NCBI RefSeq assembly: GCF_014281055.1
Contig: NZ_JACRSE010000005.1
Coordinates: 62,001-126,000, forward strand
Origin: Fluviispira vulneris
Lineage (GTDB): Bacteria; Bdellovibrionota_B; Oligoflexia; Silvanigrellales; Silvanigrellaceae
Length of the DNA stretch: 64,000 nucleotides
Reading direction: 5' to 3'
In this document: piece by piece, positions 23,241 through 30,196 of the stretch
Position numbering within the stretch: position 1 is the first letter of the stretch
Layout: each line of letters starts with the position of its first letter
Made by a program: the position numbers and the translations under genes
The notes under the pieces: generated by a model
Database searches by the model: none
Told to the model about the DNA's origin: nothing
What the model saw: the letters and a program-made list of their open reading frames with translations, nothing else

Positions 23241-24389
23241 ATGACTGAAAATACTAAACAAATACTTGATACAGTTCAAGAACTAGAATCTGTATTGTCT
23301 TTTGCTGTGCAAAAATCCTTAGGAAATTTCACTTGGAAAGAGAGAACTCACTCTGTTGAAGAAGAGAGTGGAGTGTTTAAAGTCCGTTTTTATTCTGACG
23401 GTTTAAACTTAGCAGAAAAAACTGCAATTGAAGCTATTATCAAAGAAAACTTGGGCAAAAATAACTATAATTTTTCAGTTTATTTTGAGCGCAAGGATAA
23501 ACCAGCATCACAGCCACAAAAAACGCCCCACGCTCCTCCTCAAAGCTCGGGAGCTCATGAGCAAGCAGCGCATTCTCAGCAAAAACCAGATATGCGTCCT
23601 CCATCGGGGAAACGACCTATCTCCGGAGTTAAAAGAATCATTGCCGTTGCAAGCGGAAAAGGAGGTGTGGGCAAAAGCACGGTGAGTGTAAACTTAGCAT
23701 TAGCACTTTATAATCAAGGATATAAAGTGGGCATACTCGATGCTGATATCTACGGGCCTAGCGTCCCAACAATGCTTAATATACATAAAGACCCATTGGT
23801 GAATGAAAATAATAAAATTATTCCCCCTGAATCTTTTGGCTTAAAAGTTATGTCATTTGGTTTTTTTGCCCCTGAAGAAACGGCTGTAATTTGGCGAGGC
23901 CCCATGATCATGAAAGCCTTGCAACAGTTTTTCTGGGATGTTGAGTGGGGTGAACTTGATTTTTTAATTATCGATCTTCCTCCTGGAACGGGCGATGCTC
24001 AGTTAACTTTAGTGCAAAGCATTCCAATTTCAGGTGCTGTTATCGTAACAACACCACAAAACGTTGCTCTTCTCGATGCTGTAAAAGGCATTGCGATGTT
24101 CCGTAAAACAGATGTCCCTATCATTGGGGTCGTCGAAAACATGTCAACTTTCTCTTGCCCTGCATGTGGAACTGAGACACATATTTTCGGTGCGGGCGGT
24201 GCTGAAAAAGTATCTGAAAAATTTGAGGTCCCTATCCTTGGACATGTTCCTCTGATTCCTGAAATTCGTGCTGCAGGTGATCTTGGTGAACCATTAACTT
24301 CACAGCCTAAACACGCCGTTCGTATTCGTTTTGCTGAGATTGCTGAAAAAGTTGTTAAAAACACTTTGACAATGGAAAATAAAAAGTAA
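23241..24389 (+). CDS. mrp: Mrp/ApbC-family Fe-S carrier ATPase
   Basis: 382 residues. The deviant Walker A SGKGGVGKST (138-147), DADIYGPSVP and LIIDLPPGTGD are diagnostic of the Mrp/NBP35 branch of P-loop ATPases, and CPAC about residue 305 is the cluster-bridging CxxC. The N-terminal 85 residues take the place of the MIP18/DUF59 domain but are divergent, and a Pro/Gln/His-rich linker (about 86-128) joins them. It assembles or transfers Fe-S clusters in the cytoplasm, probably with the adjacent Nfu protein. Confidence 0.94.
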   Translation: MTENTKQILDTVQELESVLSFAVQKSLGNFTWKERTHSVEEESGVFKVRFYSDGLNLAEKTAIEAIIKENLGKNNYNFSVYFERKDKPASQPQKTPHAPPQSSGAHEQAAHSQQKPDMRPPSGKRPISGVKRIIAVASGKGGVGKSTVSVNLALALYNQGYKVGILDADIYGPSVPTMLNIHKDPLVNENNKIIPPESFGLKVMSFGFFAPEETAVIWRGPMIMKALQQFFWDVEWGELDFLIIDLPPGTGDAQLTLVQSIPISGAVIVTTPQNVALLDAVKGIAMFRKTDVPIIGVVENMSTFSCPACGTETHIFGAGGAEKVSEKFEVPILGHVPLIPEIRAAGDLGEPLTSQPKHAVRIRFAEIAEKVVKNTLTMENKK

Positions 24390-24397
24390 TTTATTGG

Positions 24398-25789
24398 TCA
24401 AATTAAACTTTGGTTATATGACGGTGACATGACAAAATTTAAAAAACGGCCAGTTCCTGATATATATTCATAAGTATGTTCAAGTTCAGCAGGAATAAAA
24501 ATCGTTGCTGGACTTTTTATTAATTGACTCTCATTATTTATTGTTACCTTAGCGACAAGACCCGTTCCATCAGAATTATTCCCCATAAAAACAAAAATAC
24601 TGTCACAATGATGTGCATGCGTATCGACATGAGGTTCATAACTTTCTGCATAATCTTCTTTAAAAAGACGTTCGATGATATAAACAGGAGATCTTTCATC
24701 CACTCGAAAATCAATGTAAACCCAACGATCACCCACTCCATGTCTGTGATATTTTAACTCTTCAGCAGATTTTAAAAAGGGGATCCCGATTTTAAAATCA
24801 TTTAAAAATCTTTTTTGATTTTCTCGAATATATTCCTTAGTAGCCATAGACCTTTTCATCGCAAAAGGTTCTGGTGATAAATATTCATATGCTTGATAGT
24901 TTTTTGAATTCGCTTTTGTATGATATTTTGATGTATGGATAAATACATTTTTACCTACGATAGGTCTATAAAATTCAGGTGTAAAATGGGCAATTCTTGA
25001 AACAATACTTGCTAAATATTTTGTTTCCTTAAAATTATAATCAGAATAATTATAAAATTCTTTTAACGAGGCACTCATTTGAAATAAATCACAGATACCT
25101 GCTCTCTCACCTATTCCAAGCACGCTGACATCAATGACAGTGGCACCCGCCTCTATAGCAGCATGGGCATTGGCTAATGCTAATCCTAAATCATTGTGAA
25201 GATGCACTTCTATTTCGCATTTAAATTTACTCACAGCCAAACGAACCATCTGCTTACATTTTCTAGGATTCCACGCACCGACCGTATCTGCCAAGCTCAA
25301 ACGATCTAAGCTTTCTTCTGCTAACATTTGTGCAATTTCTTCAACGATATCATGAGATGTACGTGAAGCATCTTCTATCGTAAATCGAACTTTTAAACCT
25401 AATTTTTTTGCATAACGAATGGAAGATTTAACTTGCTCTTTTACCCAATCTTTTGACTTATTTGTATATTTAGTCTCAAGAGATATAGGGTTAAATGAAG
25501 CCCATATTCCAACCCAATTTGCCCCAGTCCGATATGCAGAAAGTATTTCAGAATGACAAGCGCGAGAATGCACTAAAATATTTGTACTTTTAATTTCATT
25601 GCAAATTGACATGCATGTCTCTTCTTCTTTTATTGATATTCCAGGATGTCCTATTTCAATAGTGTCTACACCAAAAAGAGCTAAATGCTTTGCAATTTCA
25701 ATTTTTTCTTCTAGAGAAAAGCAAACACCGTAAGCTTGCTCGCCTTCTCGCAGAGTGGAATCAAGAAGTTTTATTTTATTACGAAGCAC
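24398..25789 (-). CDS. DRE-TIM metallolyase (HMGL-like) fused to a cupin
   Basis: 463 residues from GTG 25789 (AAGGA upstream). Residues about 5-275 are a DRE-TIM barrel: LLDSTLREGEQAYGV is the metal/catalytic motif, VHLHNDLGLALANA supplies the HxH metal ligands, and VLGIGERAG is the glycine loop. This family includes isopropylmalate, homocitrate and citramalate synthases. There is no LeuA allosteric domain. Instead, about residues 385-455 form a cupin (HVDTHAHHCDSIFVFMG, then PAELEHTYEY). Its start overlaps the hydrolase gene by 11 bp. The reaction is probably an acetyl-CoA-type aldol condensation or a lyase. Product unknown. Confidence 0.82.
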   Translation of the reverse strand: MLRNKIKLLDSTLREGEQAYGVCFSLEEKIEIAKHLALFGVDTIEIGHPGISIKEEETCMSICNEIKSTNILVHSRACHSEILSAYRTGANWVGIWASFNPISLETKYTNKSKDWVKEQVKSSIRYAKKLGLKVRFTIEDASRTSHDIVEEIAQMLAEESLDRLSLADTVGAWNPRKCKQMVRLAVSKFKCEIEVHLHNDLGLALANAHAAIEAGATVIDVSVLGIGERAGICDLFQMSASLKEFYNYSDYNFKETKYLASIVSRIAHFTPEFYRPIVGKNVFIHTSKYHTKANSKNYQAYEYLSPEPFAMKRSMATKEYIRENQKRFLNDFKIGIPFLKSAEELKYHRHGVGDRWVYIDFRVDERSPVYIIERLFKEDYAESYEPHVDTHAHHCDSIFVFMGNNSDGTGLVAKVTINNESQLIKSPATIFIPAELEHTYEYISGTGRFLNFVMSPSYNQSLI

Positions 25790-26807
25790 TTTCTGTTTCC
25801 TTATTTTTTAGAAAAGACACTATAGCGTCTATATATTTTTTCCGATTATTTTCATAGATAATCCAATGTGTTGCATTTTTAATAATAATTTCTTTTTTAA
25901 ATTTTACACCTGTAAGTTTTTTAAAAAGATTTTTATCTGCAAATAAATCTTGATCGCCATTAATCACTAATGTTGGTTGAATAATTTTAGATATTTCATA
26001 AACAGGTCGTTCATTCCATACTTCAAAAAGATCTTTCATTGGCCCCATGACTCTTCTAATTGAACCAGGAACTCTGCTCTTGCTATCAAGATTTCTATAT
26101 ACTTTCTCAATTGAGTTAATTGTGTCCTGAGTTACTAAATCTTTTTCTTGCATCATCATTTTCCAATGTGAATAAATCGCTTCCCAAGGAATATTTTGAT
26201 ACGCTCCTAATTTAGCATTAAATTGATTATTCTTATCTGCAAAAGGTTTGGTAAATAAGGGAAGACTGAAGGAATGCATTGCTCCCGTTAAAACTAATTT
26301 ATCAACATTTTTATGATTTATTGAAGCATATTCTGCTGCTACAATTGATCCAAAAGACCAACCAATGAGGGAAACTTTTTCAACATTTTTTAATTTAGTA
26401 ATATAATCGATTATGACAGAAAGTTGTTTTATAGCATCTTTACTTTGTAGGGGATAAACACCTTCTGGTGGTGGATAAATTTCCATTTCTTTTGGATAAG
26501 TTGATTTACCCATTCCTTCAAAATCAACACTAAAAACATCCAGTCCCGCTTTTGCCAATTCATCCATAAACGAAACAGCAGGTATATCAAATGCTTCTGC
26601 AGAAGGAATACAAAGCGGTGGGAGTAAAATAACAATGCCCGATCTTTTATTCTTTGCTATCGCTTTATTAAAACTTTTTTCTTTGACATACAACGTGCTT
26701 TCCGAACCATATTTTATAAAATGCTCGGTTATTTTGATATTGTTAGAATAGGAATTTAAGCATACAACTAACTGAATAAAAACAATGAAAAACTTAAAGT
26801 AACGCAT
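25779..26807 (-). CDS. Exported alpha/beta hydrolase
   Basis: 342 residues. The N-terminus (RYFKFFIVFIQLVVCLNSYS) is a probable Sec signal peptide. The nucleophile elbow is GWSFGS (about residue 150), the oxyanion region is VILLPPLCIPSAEAFD, the acid is the Asp in LVINGDQDLF and the histidine is in KNATHWIIYEN, so the triad is complete. It resembles serine aminopeptidase/lysophospholipase-type hydrolases. It lies between ThiF-like gene 1 and the DRE-TIM gene with overlap or short spacing, so it belongs to that operon even though it should act in the periplasm. That is odd for a biosynthetic partner. Confidence 0.8.
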   Translation of the reverse strand: MRYFKFFIVFIQLVVCLNSYSNNIKITEHFIKYGSESTLYVKEKSFNKAIAKNKRSGIVILLPPLCIPSAEAFDIPAVSFMDELAKAGLDVFSVDFEGMGKSTYPKEMEIYPPPEGVYPLQSKDAIKQLSVIIDYITKLKNVEKVSLIGWSFGSIVAAEYASINHKNVDKLVLTGAMHSFSLPLFTKPFADKNNQFNAKLGAYQNIPWEAIYSHWKMMMQEKDLVTQDTINSIEKVYRNLDSKSRVPGSIRRVMGPMKDLFEVWNERPVYEISKIIQPTLVINGDQDLFADKNLFKKLTGVKFKKEIIIKNATHWIIYENNRKKYIDAIVSFLKNKETESAS

Positions 26808-26829
26808 TTTCCCATGTCCCTTCCATTAA

Positions 26830-27675
26830 TTAAAGCAATGAATTATCCCATGTTCCTTCCACTGGATGTTCTATTTTTACCATTTCAGTCCTACCTAAAT
26901 CAATTTTAACTAAATTTGGTGCATAACTAGGAGAAAGATTGTTTCGCTTTAAAATATATTTAAATACCTCAAAACTTGCCAATAATCCTACGATATTCGC
27001 AACAGGACAAAGCACTGCCCATGGAGCTTTTTTATCTACAAAAGCATTGGCCCATTCTTCATGTGCACCAAATTTAACAGAATTTATTGCTCTCTCATTT
27101 TTTATTTTTAATATTTCATTTTTAACTTCGTCACTTAATTCTTTATTATAAGAATTATGTCGCAAAACAATTTCATAAGGAGGTGTATTGTCTGAAAAAG
27201 TCATCACGCCACCACGGAAGGGAGGAGTCACTGCAATCCAAACGGATGGAATTTGAATTTTTTGAGCTGTCCTATGAATAATAACTCTCGTCACAAGATT
27301 GTCAGTAGCATCTACAACAATGTCAGAATCTTTTAATAATCGATAGGCATTTTCTTCATTAAACATTTCCAATGAAACTTTTACATTTATATTTGGATTG
27401 ATGTCTAATAATGTTTCTTTAGCACATTCTGCTTTGTATTTATTAATTCTTGAGACCGATGAAAGCATTTGTCTATTAATGTTACTCAATTCAAATTTAT
27501 CCATATCTACAACATGGATATTTCCTATTCCCATTCGAGCGAGCGAGATGAGAGTCACTCCACCTACCCCACCCGCACCAATGACAGTTACTTTTGCTTT
27601 TGCTAAACTTATTTGTTCTTTTTCTGTTATAACTCCAATGTTTCTCATAAAAATTTCATTTTCTAATGATTGCAT
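26830..27675 (-). CDS. ThiF/MoeB/E1-like adenylyltransferase 1
   Basis: 281 residues. VTVIGAGGVGGVTLISLARMG is the Rossmann nucleotide site, VVDMDKFELSNINRQML the E1 signature with the NxxRQ motif, and DIVVDATDN the Mg-ATP aspartate region. E1-like proteins activate a C-terminal carboxylate as acyl-adenylate. The two CxxC zinc pairs of ThiF and MoeB are absent, and no ubiquitin-like (ThiS/MoaD) partner is nearby, which recalls peptide- or small-molecule-activating members such as MccB. ATG 27675 follows AAGGATAAGAA. It is a paralogue of the gene at 27810-28673. Confidence 0.87.
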   Translation of the reverse strand: MQSLENEIFMRNIGVITEKEQISLAKAKVTVIGAGGVGGVTLISLARMGIGNIHVVDMDKFELSNINRQMLSSVSRINKYKAECAKETLLDINPNINVKVSLEMFNEENAYRLLKDSDIVVDATDNLVTRVIIHRTAQKIQIPSVWIAVTPPFRGGVMTFSDNTPPYEIVLRHNSYNKELSDEVKNEILKIKNERAINSVKFGAHEEWANAFVDKKAPWAVLCPVANIVGLLASFEVFKYILKRNNLSPSYAPNLVKIDLGRTEMVKIEHPVEGTWDNSLL

Positions 27676-27809
27676 TTCTTATCCTTCAATTTATAAAATA
27701 TTTTTAATTATGCTTTTCTAATTTACCCTAAAGCTTTTCTTGATTTTGTTTTTTACAGGATTCTAAATCTTTTCTTGATTAAGCTTATTAAGTTATTATA
27801 AATCTATTC

Positions 27810-28673
27810 TTAAATATGAATAGCCTCCCAATAGCCCTGACTTGGTGTCTGTACAGAAACGGGATAAAGCAAGTTATCCAAATCGATTAAAATCCCTTTT
27901 GGAGCTAATGCAAGCGGTTTTTTACCGATAATAAGCTGAATAACTTCATGACAACTAAACGATGCTAATAAAGATGCACGAATAGGAGTTATTATCCACC
28001 CAACTTTTCCTGCGCAGAAATCATCTGCCCATTCTTTTGGTGCTCCCTTTTCAACCGAATATTGTGCTCTTTGTTTCTTTAAATTTTGCACAAATTCATG
28101 CACTGAAGGATCCGAAATTTTTTTCCCATGTGTTGGTATATTTAAGGCCGTTTCGTAATCAATCCCATCCGGAATAAAAGTAGAAACAAAGCCCCTATGT
28201 GGCGGACTTCCTGACATAGAAACACTGGGAATTCCATGTTTTTTTGCTGCACGATGGACAATAATTCTCGAAGGCATATCATCCAACGCTTCGAGCACAA
28301 CATCATGACCTTTTATCAAATCATCTACATTTTCTTCTGTAACTTTTACTTGATAAAATCGAGATTTTAAATATGGATTAATATCTTTTAAATATTTTTC
28401 AGTGGAAATACTTTTTGCTACATCAATTGTAGAACAAAATGCCAACATCTGTCGATTGATATTTGAAATTTCAAATGTATCAGGATCCACACCACTCAAA
28501 GATCCTATACCTGCACGCGCACAGAGAATGGCCTCCATTCCACCCACACCACCTAAGCCAAAAATAATAACTTTACTGTTAGCAAGCATTTCTTGCTCTT
28601 TATGTGAATAAACTCCAATATTTTTTTTGGTCATTTCTGAATAATATTCAGCTTCATTTAACTTAATATTCAT
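27810..28673 (-). CDS. ThiF/MoeB/E1-like adenylyltransferase 2
   Basis: 287 residues, paralogous to the neighbouring ThiF-like protein (shared GVYSHKEQ/GVITEKEQ start, NINRQML, and a 'GA..EWA..F...K..W' block). VIIFGLGGVGGMEAI is the nucleotide loop. Where paralogue 1 has DATDN, this one reads EALDDM, so the Mg-ATP aspartate pattern is altered and it may be the regulatory or inactive half of a heterodimer. No CxxC zinc pairs. ATG 28673 is preceded by GGGGGGAA. It is the first gene of the four-gene minus-strand locus. Confidence 0.86.
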   Translation of the reverse strand: MNIKLNEAEYYSEMTKKNIGVYSHKEQEMLANSKVIIFGLGGVGGMEAILCARAGIGSLSGVDPDTFEISNINRQMLAFCSTIDVAKSISTEKYLKDINPYLKSRFYQVKVTEENVDDLIKGHDVVLEALDDMPSRIIVHRAAKKHGIPSVSMSGSPPHRGFVSTFIPDGIDYETALNIPTHGKKISDPSVHEFVQNLKKQRAQYSVEKGAPKEWADDFCAGKVGWIITPIRASLLASFSCHEVIQLIIGKKPLALAPKGILIDLDNLLYPVSVQTPSQGYWEAIHI

Positions 28674-28810
28674 GTTCCCCCCTCTTACAAGAAGCTTTAT
28701 AAATGAGTCTTAAGCTCTTGCAAACAAAAGGGAATAGGCGCAACAAAATGTTTCATATGTTGTGTATTTTTTGTTTATTTAAAAAATTTCTTTCCCACAA
28801 TTATTTTAGC

Positions 28811-29980
28811 TCAACTTGCACGCGAAGTTTTCATGACAGATTGATTTGGGAAGTTTTTTTGTTGCTTCAATTGATAAGATAAAATTGCTTCAAATAAGCG
28901 TTTTGATAAATTTTGATTTTCAAACTCAATGCCAATGCACCATTCTCCAGATTCAGAACTTGTCCATGAAATCTTACCAGACATAGATTGTATTCGATGT
29001 GCTAAATCTTTTTCTCCTACTTTTTTCTTAGTGCTAGAAGATAAAGTTGAAAGTGAAGATGATTTTTTCTGCTGCTTTTTACCTTTTACTTCTGCAGCAT
29101 CTAGCTTCGTCATACCTTTTTTATTTTTTTCTTGAGCTACAACAATTTCTTCTTTTGAATTTGTAATATGAGAAATTTTTGAAAGTTCAAGCATACTCCC
29201 ACTTTCAATATCTGAATGCGATGGAAGTTTTAATGTAACTGAACTTCCTGAAGAGATTATTTCCATACTCGCTAACAGTAAATTCCAATCCGTTAATCCA
29301 GATTTTCCTTGTTTACTTGGTTTTAATTTCACACCGCTCAAAGAACAATCTTCAATAATGCCGCAAAAATAAATTGGTATAGGAGCTACAACTTCTGCTT
29401 TATTCTTTGTTGTTTTTTTCTCCTTAAGATTTTTCCCAATCTTTTTTGTAACTTTTTCTGTTTTTGTCTCGACTTTAGCTCCAACAGCTTTTTTATTTTT
29501 TTGTGGCGCTAATATTTGCTGAAAAGCAAAAACACTTTCATTTTCAAGTAACACCTCAGCAAAGACAGGCAAATGGCAAGCAACTCTCTTTTGAGTTCTT
29601 GTCTTGAGCTCACAAAAGCGCTGTGCCACAGCAATCACAACTTCAGGATTCACTGGCTTCTTCAGCCAACTTTGACAGTCAGCATAGGGTTGTAATGATG
29701 TCTCAATGGACTGAATCACATCTGGTCGATCAAATGCCGTGATTAAAATGGGTGTGTCATACAATTTTTTAAGGAGCAGAGCTGTTTTAGCTCCATTCAA
29801 ATCTGGTAAATCAAAATCAATGACAAATGCATCTACACCTTCGCTGCATTTAGCCAATTGAAGCGCTTCTGCAGATGTCTTAGCCACAAGAACCTGTATA
29901 CCCGGATAATGATCTTTAAAGACTTCACTGGTCATAACAAGACTGGCTTTACTTGAATCAGCAATTAAAATTTTCTTCAC
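28811..29980 (-). CDS. Receiver protein with an interrupted PilZ domain
   Basis: 389 residues from GTG 29980 (GGGAG upstream). Residues 1-125 are a receiver (ILIADSSKAS, phospho-Asp in VIDFDLPDLNG, WLKKPVN lysine). A PilZ-type c-di-GMP signature follows: RTQKR (RxxxR) about 134, and DCSLSGVKL (DxSxxG) about 215. The usual gap between them is 20-30 residues. Here about 80 lie between, including a lysine-rich, low-complexity insert, and a second Lys/Ser-rich insert occupies about 285-325 before the final strands (GEWCIGIEFEN). Possibly links phosphorelay and c-di-GMP inputs. Targets unknown. Confidence 0.75.
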   Translation of the reverse strand: MKKILIADSSKASLVMTSEVFKDHYPGIQVLVAKTSAEALQLAKCSEGVDAFVIDFDLPDLNGAKTALLLKKLYDTPILITAFDRPDVIQSIETSLQPYADCQSWLKKPVNPEVVIAVAQRFCELKTRTQKRVACHLPVFAEVLLENESVFAFQQILAPQKNKKAVGAKVETKTEKVTKKIGKNLKEKKTTKNKAEVVAPIPIYFCGIIEDCSLSGVKLKPSKQGKSGLTDWNLLLASMEIISSGSSVTLKLPSHSDIESGSMLELSKISHITNSKEEIVVAQEKNKKGMTKLDAAEVKGKKQQKKSSSLSTLSSSTKKKVGEKDLAHRIQSMSGKISWTSSESGEWCIGIEFENQNLSKRLFEAILSYQLKQQKNFPNQSVMKTSRAS

Positions 29981-30121: not shown

Positions 30122-30196
30122 TGGCTCCCCAGGGGTGGATTGAACACCCGACCAAGTGATTAACAGTCACTTGCTCTACCACTGAGCTACTGAGGA
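30122..30196 (-). tRNA. tRNA-Asn (anticodon GTT), CCA encoded
   Basis: Reading the minus strand from 30196: acceptor TCCTCAG pairs with CTGGGGA, the D arm is GCTC/GAGC, the anticodon stem AGTGA/TCACT closes the loop CTGTTAA with anticodon GTT, the variable loop is TGGTC, the T arm is GGGTG-TTCAATC-CACCC, then discriminator G and encoded CCA. 75 nt including CCA. All stems pair, with one G-T in the acceptor. Confidence 0.96.

Follow-up and report, generated by a model that had tools for sequence, protein, structure and literature searches.

Bacterial E1-like enzymes of the ThiF/MoeB type are, to our knowledge, known to act on ubiquitin-like proteins (UBLs), ribosomal peptides and a tRNA base. 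Many ribosomally synthesized and post-translationally modified peptides (RiPPs) are now known to involve the ThiF-like family, two members of which, EnfB and GrcB, carry a RiPP recognition element (RRE) domain N-terminal to the ThiF-like part and act on precursor peptides (PMC12250964). In beta-lactone clusters, an isopropylmalate synthase (IPMS)-like enzyme together with an AMP-ligase forms the antiSMASH signature (PMC8719888). The PA1211-PA1221 locus of Pseudomonas aeruginosa is a predicted non-ribosomal peptide cluster, in which PA1221 is the non-ribosomal peptide synthetase (NRPS), PA1211 and PA1219 are alpha/beta hydrolases and PA1215 is a ligase (PMC9866376); it has been called a locus of unknown function (PMC3510237), and its product was not stated in the literature that we found. 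Here we describe a four-gene cassette in a stretch of 64,000 nucleotides from Fluviispira vulneris (assembly GCF_014281055.1, contig NZ_JACRSE010000005.1, positions 62,001 to 126,000; hereafter the window, to whose numbering all positions below refer unless a contig is named). The cassette combines two E1-like enzymes, ThiF1 and ThiF2, with an alpha/beta hydrolase that is putatively exported and a DRE-TIM synthase that carries a fused cupin-like domain. Judged from its sequences, we tentatively read it, at a little under an even chance, as a compact small-acid biosynthetic set, in which the synthase would build a branched hydroxy-diacid and the E1-like pair would activate a carboxylate in place of an AMP ligase.

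The whole cassette interval, delimited by comparison of the flanks across the genus, extends from mrp to a response-regulator gene (24390-28810) in a host genome of 3.6 Mb on nine contigs. All four genes lie on the minus strand and are transcribed in the order ThiF1 (27810-28673, 287 amino acids (aa); Pfam ThiF, E=5.8e-37), ThiF2 (26830-27675, 281 aa; Pfam ThiF, E=1.6e-47), alpha/beta hydrolase (25779-26807, 342 aa; Pfam Abhydrolase_1, 8e-18) and DRE-TIM-cupin (24398-25789, 463 aa; Pfam HMGL-like, 5.7e-64, plus a partial HCS_D2). The open reading frames (ORFs) and the short or overlapping gaps from 27675 down to 24398 are present as the original prediction, made from the sequence alone, had described them: the ThiF2 and hydrolase genes are separated by 22 bp, and the hydrolase and DRE-TIM-cupin genes overlap by 11 bp. 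The gap between ThiF1 and ThiF2 is 134 bp in the window versus at most 26 bp in Fluviispira multicolorata, where the ThiF2/hydrolase and hydrolase/DRE-TIM-cupin junctions both overlap. An Rfam scan gave no match, and a promoter and terminator scan gave no signal above chance. A tRNA-Asn gene (30122-30196, minus strand) is set apart from the cassette by about 1.4 kb, on the far side of the response-regulator gene, and does not mark the edge of the cassette.

The right-hand flank of the cassette was used to search seven further Fluviispira assemblies (G051-G057). The F. multicolorata genome (G053) carries the four genes in identical order between mrp and the response regulator, with a ThiF1 orthologue of 88% identity. 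In G051 and G052 mrp directly abuts the response regulator, leaving the site empty, and in G054, G055 and G057 unrelated genes lie between them, while G056 was fragmentary at the site and uninformative. The interval between mrp and the response regulator is a gene-turnover site in the genus. As the site is empty or otherwise occupied in the relatives, the unit consists of exactly four genes and forms a discrete cassette, which bears out the four-gene locus of the prediction; nor did its neighbours in related genomes prove to be unrelated, the same four genes and flanks being found in F. multicolorata. What occupies the site (24389-28811) elsewhere is a 271-aa signal-bearing protein in G055 and G057, and a broken-looking ORF pair in G054.

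Between the two species, the ratios of nonsynonymous to synonymous substitution rates (dN/dS) were 0.064 for ThiF1, 0.087 for ThiF2, 0.150 for the hydrolase and 0.144 for DRE-TIM-cupin, compared with 0.06-0.07 for the flanking genes, and synonymous divergence was 1.2-1.7. All four genes are evidently under purifying selection, and by these rates the cassette appears to be old in this species pair and functional. Its conservation in a second species, at low dN/dS, shows that the arrangement is not due to chance. A recent transfer into one species was considered and rejected, the divergence of the cassette being equal to that of the flanking genes and its GC content like that of the surroundings.

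Across a domain-wide sample of 383 genomes from 320 genera, the ThiF pair or the cupin domain was matched at strong E-values only in the window host and F. multicolorata, the two genomes in which the pair and the DRE-TIM-cupin gene also occur together. One extra cupin match (G314, 8.6e-6) was a short stand-alone cupin without an adjacent DRE-TIM gene. Within the window's phylum (58 genomes), DRE-TIM-cupin was carried by the same two species only, and ThiF1 had one further weak match (G034). F. multicolorata was the sole match when 84,980 species genomes were scanned with ThiF1 alone by a method that reaches close relatives only, so other carriers could exist. Viral contigs contained no match to the DRE-TIM-cupin or ThiF profiles. 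Literature searches turned up no described system joining ThiF with isopropylmalate synthase and, in line with the prediction, no named system with this gene set. The cassette thus exists as a discrete and rare unit, and as a combination it seems to be undescribed. Its component families are known, as is, from other clusters, the logic of a synthase plus an acid activator, and the E1 twist is distinctive.

Both ThiF1 and ThiF2 exceed the Pfam cut-off for the ThiF/MoeB E1-like superfamily (PF00899). We aligned 16 E1-like proteins, including four others from the host genome, and found the adenylation residues D57, N65, R68, K81 and D125 (ThiF2 numbering) to be invariant in all 16. The N-terminal arginine-finger position was Arg in 14 of the proteins and Lys only in ThiF1 of both species; ThiF2 keeps the finger (Arg11) together with all adenylation residues. 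In homodimeric E1-like enzymes, as seen in MoeB and ThiF structures, the finger Arg reaches into the active site of the partner. As this Arg is lost in ThiF1 only and the adenylation residues are kept in both proteins, the simplest reading suggests an asymmetric ThiF1-ThiF2 heterodimer, with ThiF2 completing the site of ThiF1. The two proteins were sister paralogues in a maximum-likelihood tree (support 88/93), and evidently arose by one duplication.

Neither protein contains a CxxC zinc pair, as had been predicted, and in the alignment the crossover-loop region shows no Cys common to both. Each starts about 30 residues before the Rossmann motif, with no N-terminal extension and no room for an RRE domain. 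Both score far below every curated NCBIfam cut-off and therefore do not belong to a characterised family; a match to such a family, with a known partner elsewhere in the genome, is what the prediction had named as counting against it. The closest orphan family, PRK08223, gave 133.7 and 115.6 bits against a cut-off of 266. A Foldseek search with the ThiF2 model, used like our other structure models only as a consistency check because of low confidence, matched Uba4, MoeB, ThiF, AclA, PaaA and MccB; the AclA match is from Tenacibaculum (9egb), and a literature search found no paper on AclA. The host genome encodes two further ThiF-domain proteins, in open frames of 364 and 323 aa (L002, G000:C3:448718-452434, and L005, G000:C3:337661-341278); no NCBIfam equivalog reached its cut-off against their ThiF parts. 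The ThiF relatives on plasmids (rhizobial operons, Desulfovibrio, Mycetohabitans YcaO/MoaD, Pantoea thiazole and Bdellovibrio) were rejected as counterparts, none having an annotated DRE-TIM gene, with one neighbourhood (L013) being unannotated. The ThiF-like gene on the plasmid of Bdellovibrio sp. HAGR004 (L029:7974-8849) lies near an ABC transporter and groups with a Desulfovibrio ThiF (996-aa open frame), not with the window pair.

Scans with Pfam, NCBIfam and PADLOC detected no UBL, E2 or JAMM family among the four cassette genes, and no Prok-JAB JAMM was found in the host genome, whose only ThiS-family protein is encoded 1.4 kb from a ThiF other than ThiF1 and ThiF2. The locus thus has neither a ThiS/MoaD partner nor a JAMM protease, as the prediction held. 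No precursor-like small ORF was found in the cassette gaps, the longest that is wholly or nearly wholly intergenic being 27 aa. Because no CxxC, dedicated ThiS-family partner, JAMM, precursor or RRE was found, the E1 pair most likely adenylates a small carboxylate.

DRE-TIM-cupin consists of a DRE-TIM synthase (residues 1 to about 320) followed by a cupin-like domain (about 337-463; window 24401-24838, minus strand), which was delimited by motif conservation and by profile and Foldseek matches. The best solved relative of the DRE-TIM part (residues 2-324) is homocitrate synthase 6ktq (E=3e-55), which we take to be the S. acidocaldarius enzyme. The catalytic motifs TLREGEQ, EDASRTS and HLHND are intact, as is the conserved His of the post-HMGL region, so that the residues of homocitrate and 2-isopropylmalate synthases (R-E, HxH, E and post-HMGL His) are all present. 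Synthase-type profiles ranked above lyase-type ones (284 bits for homocitrate synthase versus 51 bits for HMG-CoA lyase), and lyase and aldolase profiles in general scored much lower; the equivalog cut-off for homocitrate/2-isopropylmalate synthase (413.6 bits) was not reached. Subdomain II (HCS_D2) is only partial, covering 40 of 82 positions before the cupin-like domain begins. In that domain, the candidate metal ligands H391, H393, D396 and H438 are invariant in three species, with the spacing H391-x-H393-x2-D396-x6-G403. The cupin part is 45-79% identical among these species, with 45% to the P. aeruginosa homologue described below. A cupin profile matched the MarH cupin weakly (E=0.0026), and the best Foldseek match of the low-confidence model was 7eqk/MarH, followed by a related epimerase/lyase. 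The C-terminal domain is likely a metal cupin. The other HMGL-type enzyme of the host genome is a divergent LeuA-like protein of 537 aa (L038, G000:C1:884093-884971), and its catalytic part, the only part scanned, falls well below LeuA equivalog cut-offs. The hydrolase has an N-terminal hydrophobic signal-like segment by hydropathy, the PF00561 fold and a GWSFG nucleophile elbow at 149 (Ser151), with weak relatives of known structure (polyhydroxybutyrate depolymerase, 1.8e-5).

A single full-length homologue of DRE-TIM-cupin was found. It is encoded on a P. aeruginosa megaplasmid and is 39% identical over 462 aa, a span that takes in the cupin; no other plasmid protein matched the cupin part. 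The operon around it begins with an NRPS (adenylation and carrier domains), a protein that weakly matches a condensation domain, an alpha/beta hydrolase of thioesterase-like type and a PhyH oxygenase, and continues with DRE-TIM-cupin itself, a methyltransferase and an AMP-binding protein, in an order that matches PA1221-PA1215 of strain PAO1. The gene for the last of these, which is PA1215-like (L017:14118-14456), is truncated directly next to Mu-like phage genes, and this copy of the cluster looks interrupted. Two clusters, one on a C. sphaeroides plasmid and the other a phosphonate cluster of Pantoea, encode DRE-TIM relatives without a cupin; no cupin motif was seen by eye in the small protein after the C. 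sphaeroides enzyme. DRE-TIM-cupin therefore occurs in two unrelated bacterial settings, both with carboxylate-adenylating enzymes and alpha/beta hydrolases, the adenylating enzymes being of different superfamilies. These two co-occurrences are suggestive and are not statistical evidence.

In the proposed pathway, the DRE-TIM domain would, by its family, condense an acyl-CoA, which is acetyl-CoA in the related homocitrate and isopropylmalate synthases, with a 2-oxo acid to give a branched hydroxy-diacid. The fused metal cupin might set the configuration of, or isomerise, the 2-oxo acid or the product; this weaker step is proposed because, among solved structures, the domain comes closest to the MarH epimerase and an epimerase/lyase. 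From the residues left intact, ThiF2 would give its arginine finger to the active site of ThiF1 in the heterodimer, and ThiF1 would adenylate a carboxylate of the acid with no ubiquitin-like carrier involved. The acyl-AMP could then be captured intramolecularly, as a lactone, anhydride or imide, or by an amine, and the exported hydrolase would act on the product in the periplasm, for tailoring or self-protection. Of the pathway for an unusual acid or peptide terminus in the original prediction, the acid-building and activating logic holds up, since the P. aeruginosa DRE-TIM-cupin cluster has acyl-adenylating enzymes and alpha/beta hydrolases; the peptide terminus does not, there being no precursor ORF and no room for an RRE.

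Several observations weigh against a self-contained small-acid pathway. By Pfam, the four genes include no transporter, oxygenase or obvious nucleophile-supplying enzyme, and the pathway may lack steps or draw on functions encoded elsewhere in the genome. With half of HCS_D2, the use of acetyl-CoA by the DRE-TIM domain is not assured. Pfam made no significant cupin call on the C-terminal domain, and the DRE-TIM-cupin model had a predicted local distance difference test score (pLDDT) of 46. The Arg-to-Lys change in ThiF1 could be tolerated, or a ThiF2 homodimer could act. Only two sister species are known to carry this combination of genes.

The incompleteness just mentioned is the core of an unlikely alternative, in which the four genes are a partial biosynthetic set that gives no finished product alone, the remaining steps being encoded elsewhere. 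The missing transporter, oxygenase and amine source fit this view, as does the separate LeuA-like enzyme elsewhere in the genome, but the four genes are intact and under purifying selection in both species, and they move or are gained together as a set of four. We regard as improbable a route to a thioacid in which the ThiFs would activate the single ThiS of the genome, or a UBL that has escaped recognition, and sulfur or the carrier would then be handed on to the DRE-TIM product. A ThiS-family protein does exist in the genome, and the sharing of carriers between E1s is known in principle; however, that protein is encoded near another ThiF, and the pair differs from sulfur-carrier E1s of the ThiF/MoeB/Uba4 type in having no dedicated ThiS/MoaD/Urm1 partner, no CxxC and no common crossover-loop Cys. 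No JAMM was found in the genome, though very divergent UBLs would escape the search.

It is distinctly improbable that the cassette is a RiPP or other peptide-modifying locus, whose ThiFs adenylate a peptide C-terminus as MccB, PaaA, EnfB and GrcB do while the other genes tailor the product. The fold and residues match MccB, PaaA and ThiF, and RiPP pathways with ThiF-like enzymes are many (PMC12250964), but the gaps hold no ORF of precursor size, the ThiFs have no N-terminal recognition domain, no transporter or protease is encoded, and it is hard to see what a DRE-TIM synthase would do to a peptide. An anti-phage or ubiquitination-like defence locus (Bil/Cap2 type) is very unlikely: although the interval is a gene-turnover site and PADLOC E1-E2 models match the Rossmann part of the ThiFs, these matches cover the common adenylation fold only, no E2, UBL, JAB, sensor or effector stands beside the E1s, and defence systems are not known to include a biosynthetic synthase. 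We give hardly any weight to a role in tRNA or nucleoside modification. TcdA, which dehydrates t6A, is E1-like, acts without a UBL and matches the ThiFs by sequence, but the host genome encodes a separate TcdA-like protein (L006), and such a function would leave the synthase and the exported hydrolase without a task.

The cassette can be compared with several known systems. Like beta-lactone clusters, it sets an alkylmalate-type synthase beside an acid-adenylating enzyme (PMC8719888), but that enzyme is E1-like and duplicated, and no PF00501 match was found in the cassette or its scanned immediate neighbours. The orphan ThiFs PRK08223, PRK14851 and PRK14852 are the best family match and have the same RN-G...EQ N-terminus; the rhizobial ThiF-GNAT-nitroreductase-like operons of the PRK08223 type also have no UBL in their annotated neighbourhoods, whereas the cassette has no nitroreductase or GNAT gene and its ThiF pair forms a separate clade. 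MccB, PaaA, EnfB and GrcB likewise perform E1-like adenylation without a UBL and conserve the R/K/D residues, but they act on precursor peptides (EnfB and GrcB via the N-terminal RRE), and the cassette has neither. The catalytic DRE-TIM core is that of homocitrate synthase (6ktq, 3ivs) and LeuA, with a cupin in place of the latter half of subdomain II and of any regulatory domain such as LeuA has. The eukaryotic heterodimeric E1s NAE1-UBA3 and SAE1-SAE2 also consist of two diverged paralogues, and unequal pairing would likewise be expected of ThiF1 and ThiF2; the ThiF pair differs in having no Cys domain or UBL, and in that both subunits keep the adenylation residues while one loses the finger Arg. 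A stronger claim, doubtful but worth stating, is that the cassette represents a new E1-driven natural-product pathway, in which an asymmetric heterodimeric E1-like synthetase, freed of ubiquitin-like and peptide substrates, activates the branched acid of a cupin-fused synthase. If true, the E1 superfamily would, through activation of a free small acid, take on a task that otherwise falls to AMP-binding ligases, and two bacterial paralogues that divide an arginine finger between them would offer a simple model for the origin of heterodimeric E1s. In PA1211-PA1221, PA1217, a 'probable 2-isopropylmalate synthase', is the DRE-TIM-cupin homologue, and both loci contain carboxylate-adenylating enzymes and alpha/beta hydrolases. 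Activation there depends on NRPS and AMP-binding ligases rather than E1-like enzymes, and that cluster also has oxygenases, a methyltransferase, an Asn synthase and a major facilitator superfamily (MFS) transporter; the common DRE-TIM-cupin gives a handle on this poorly understood cluster.

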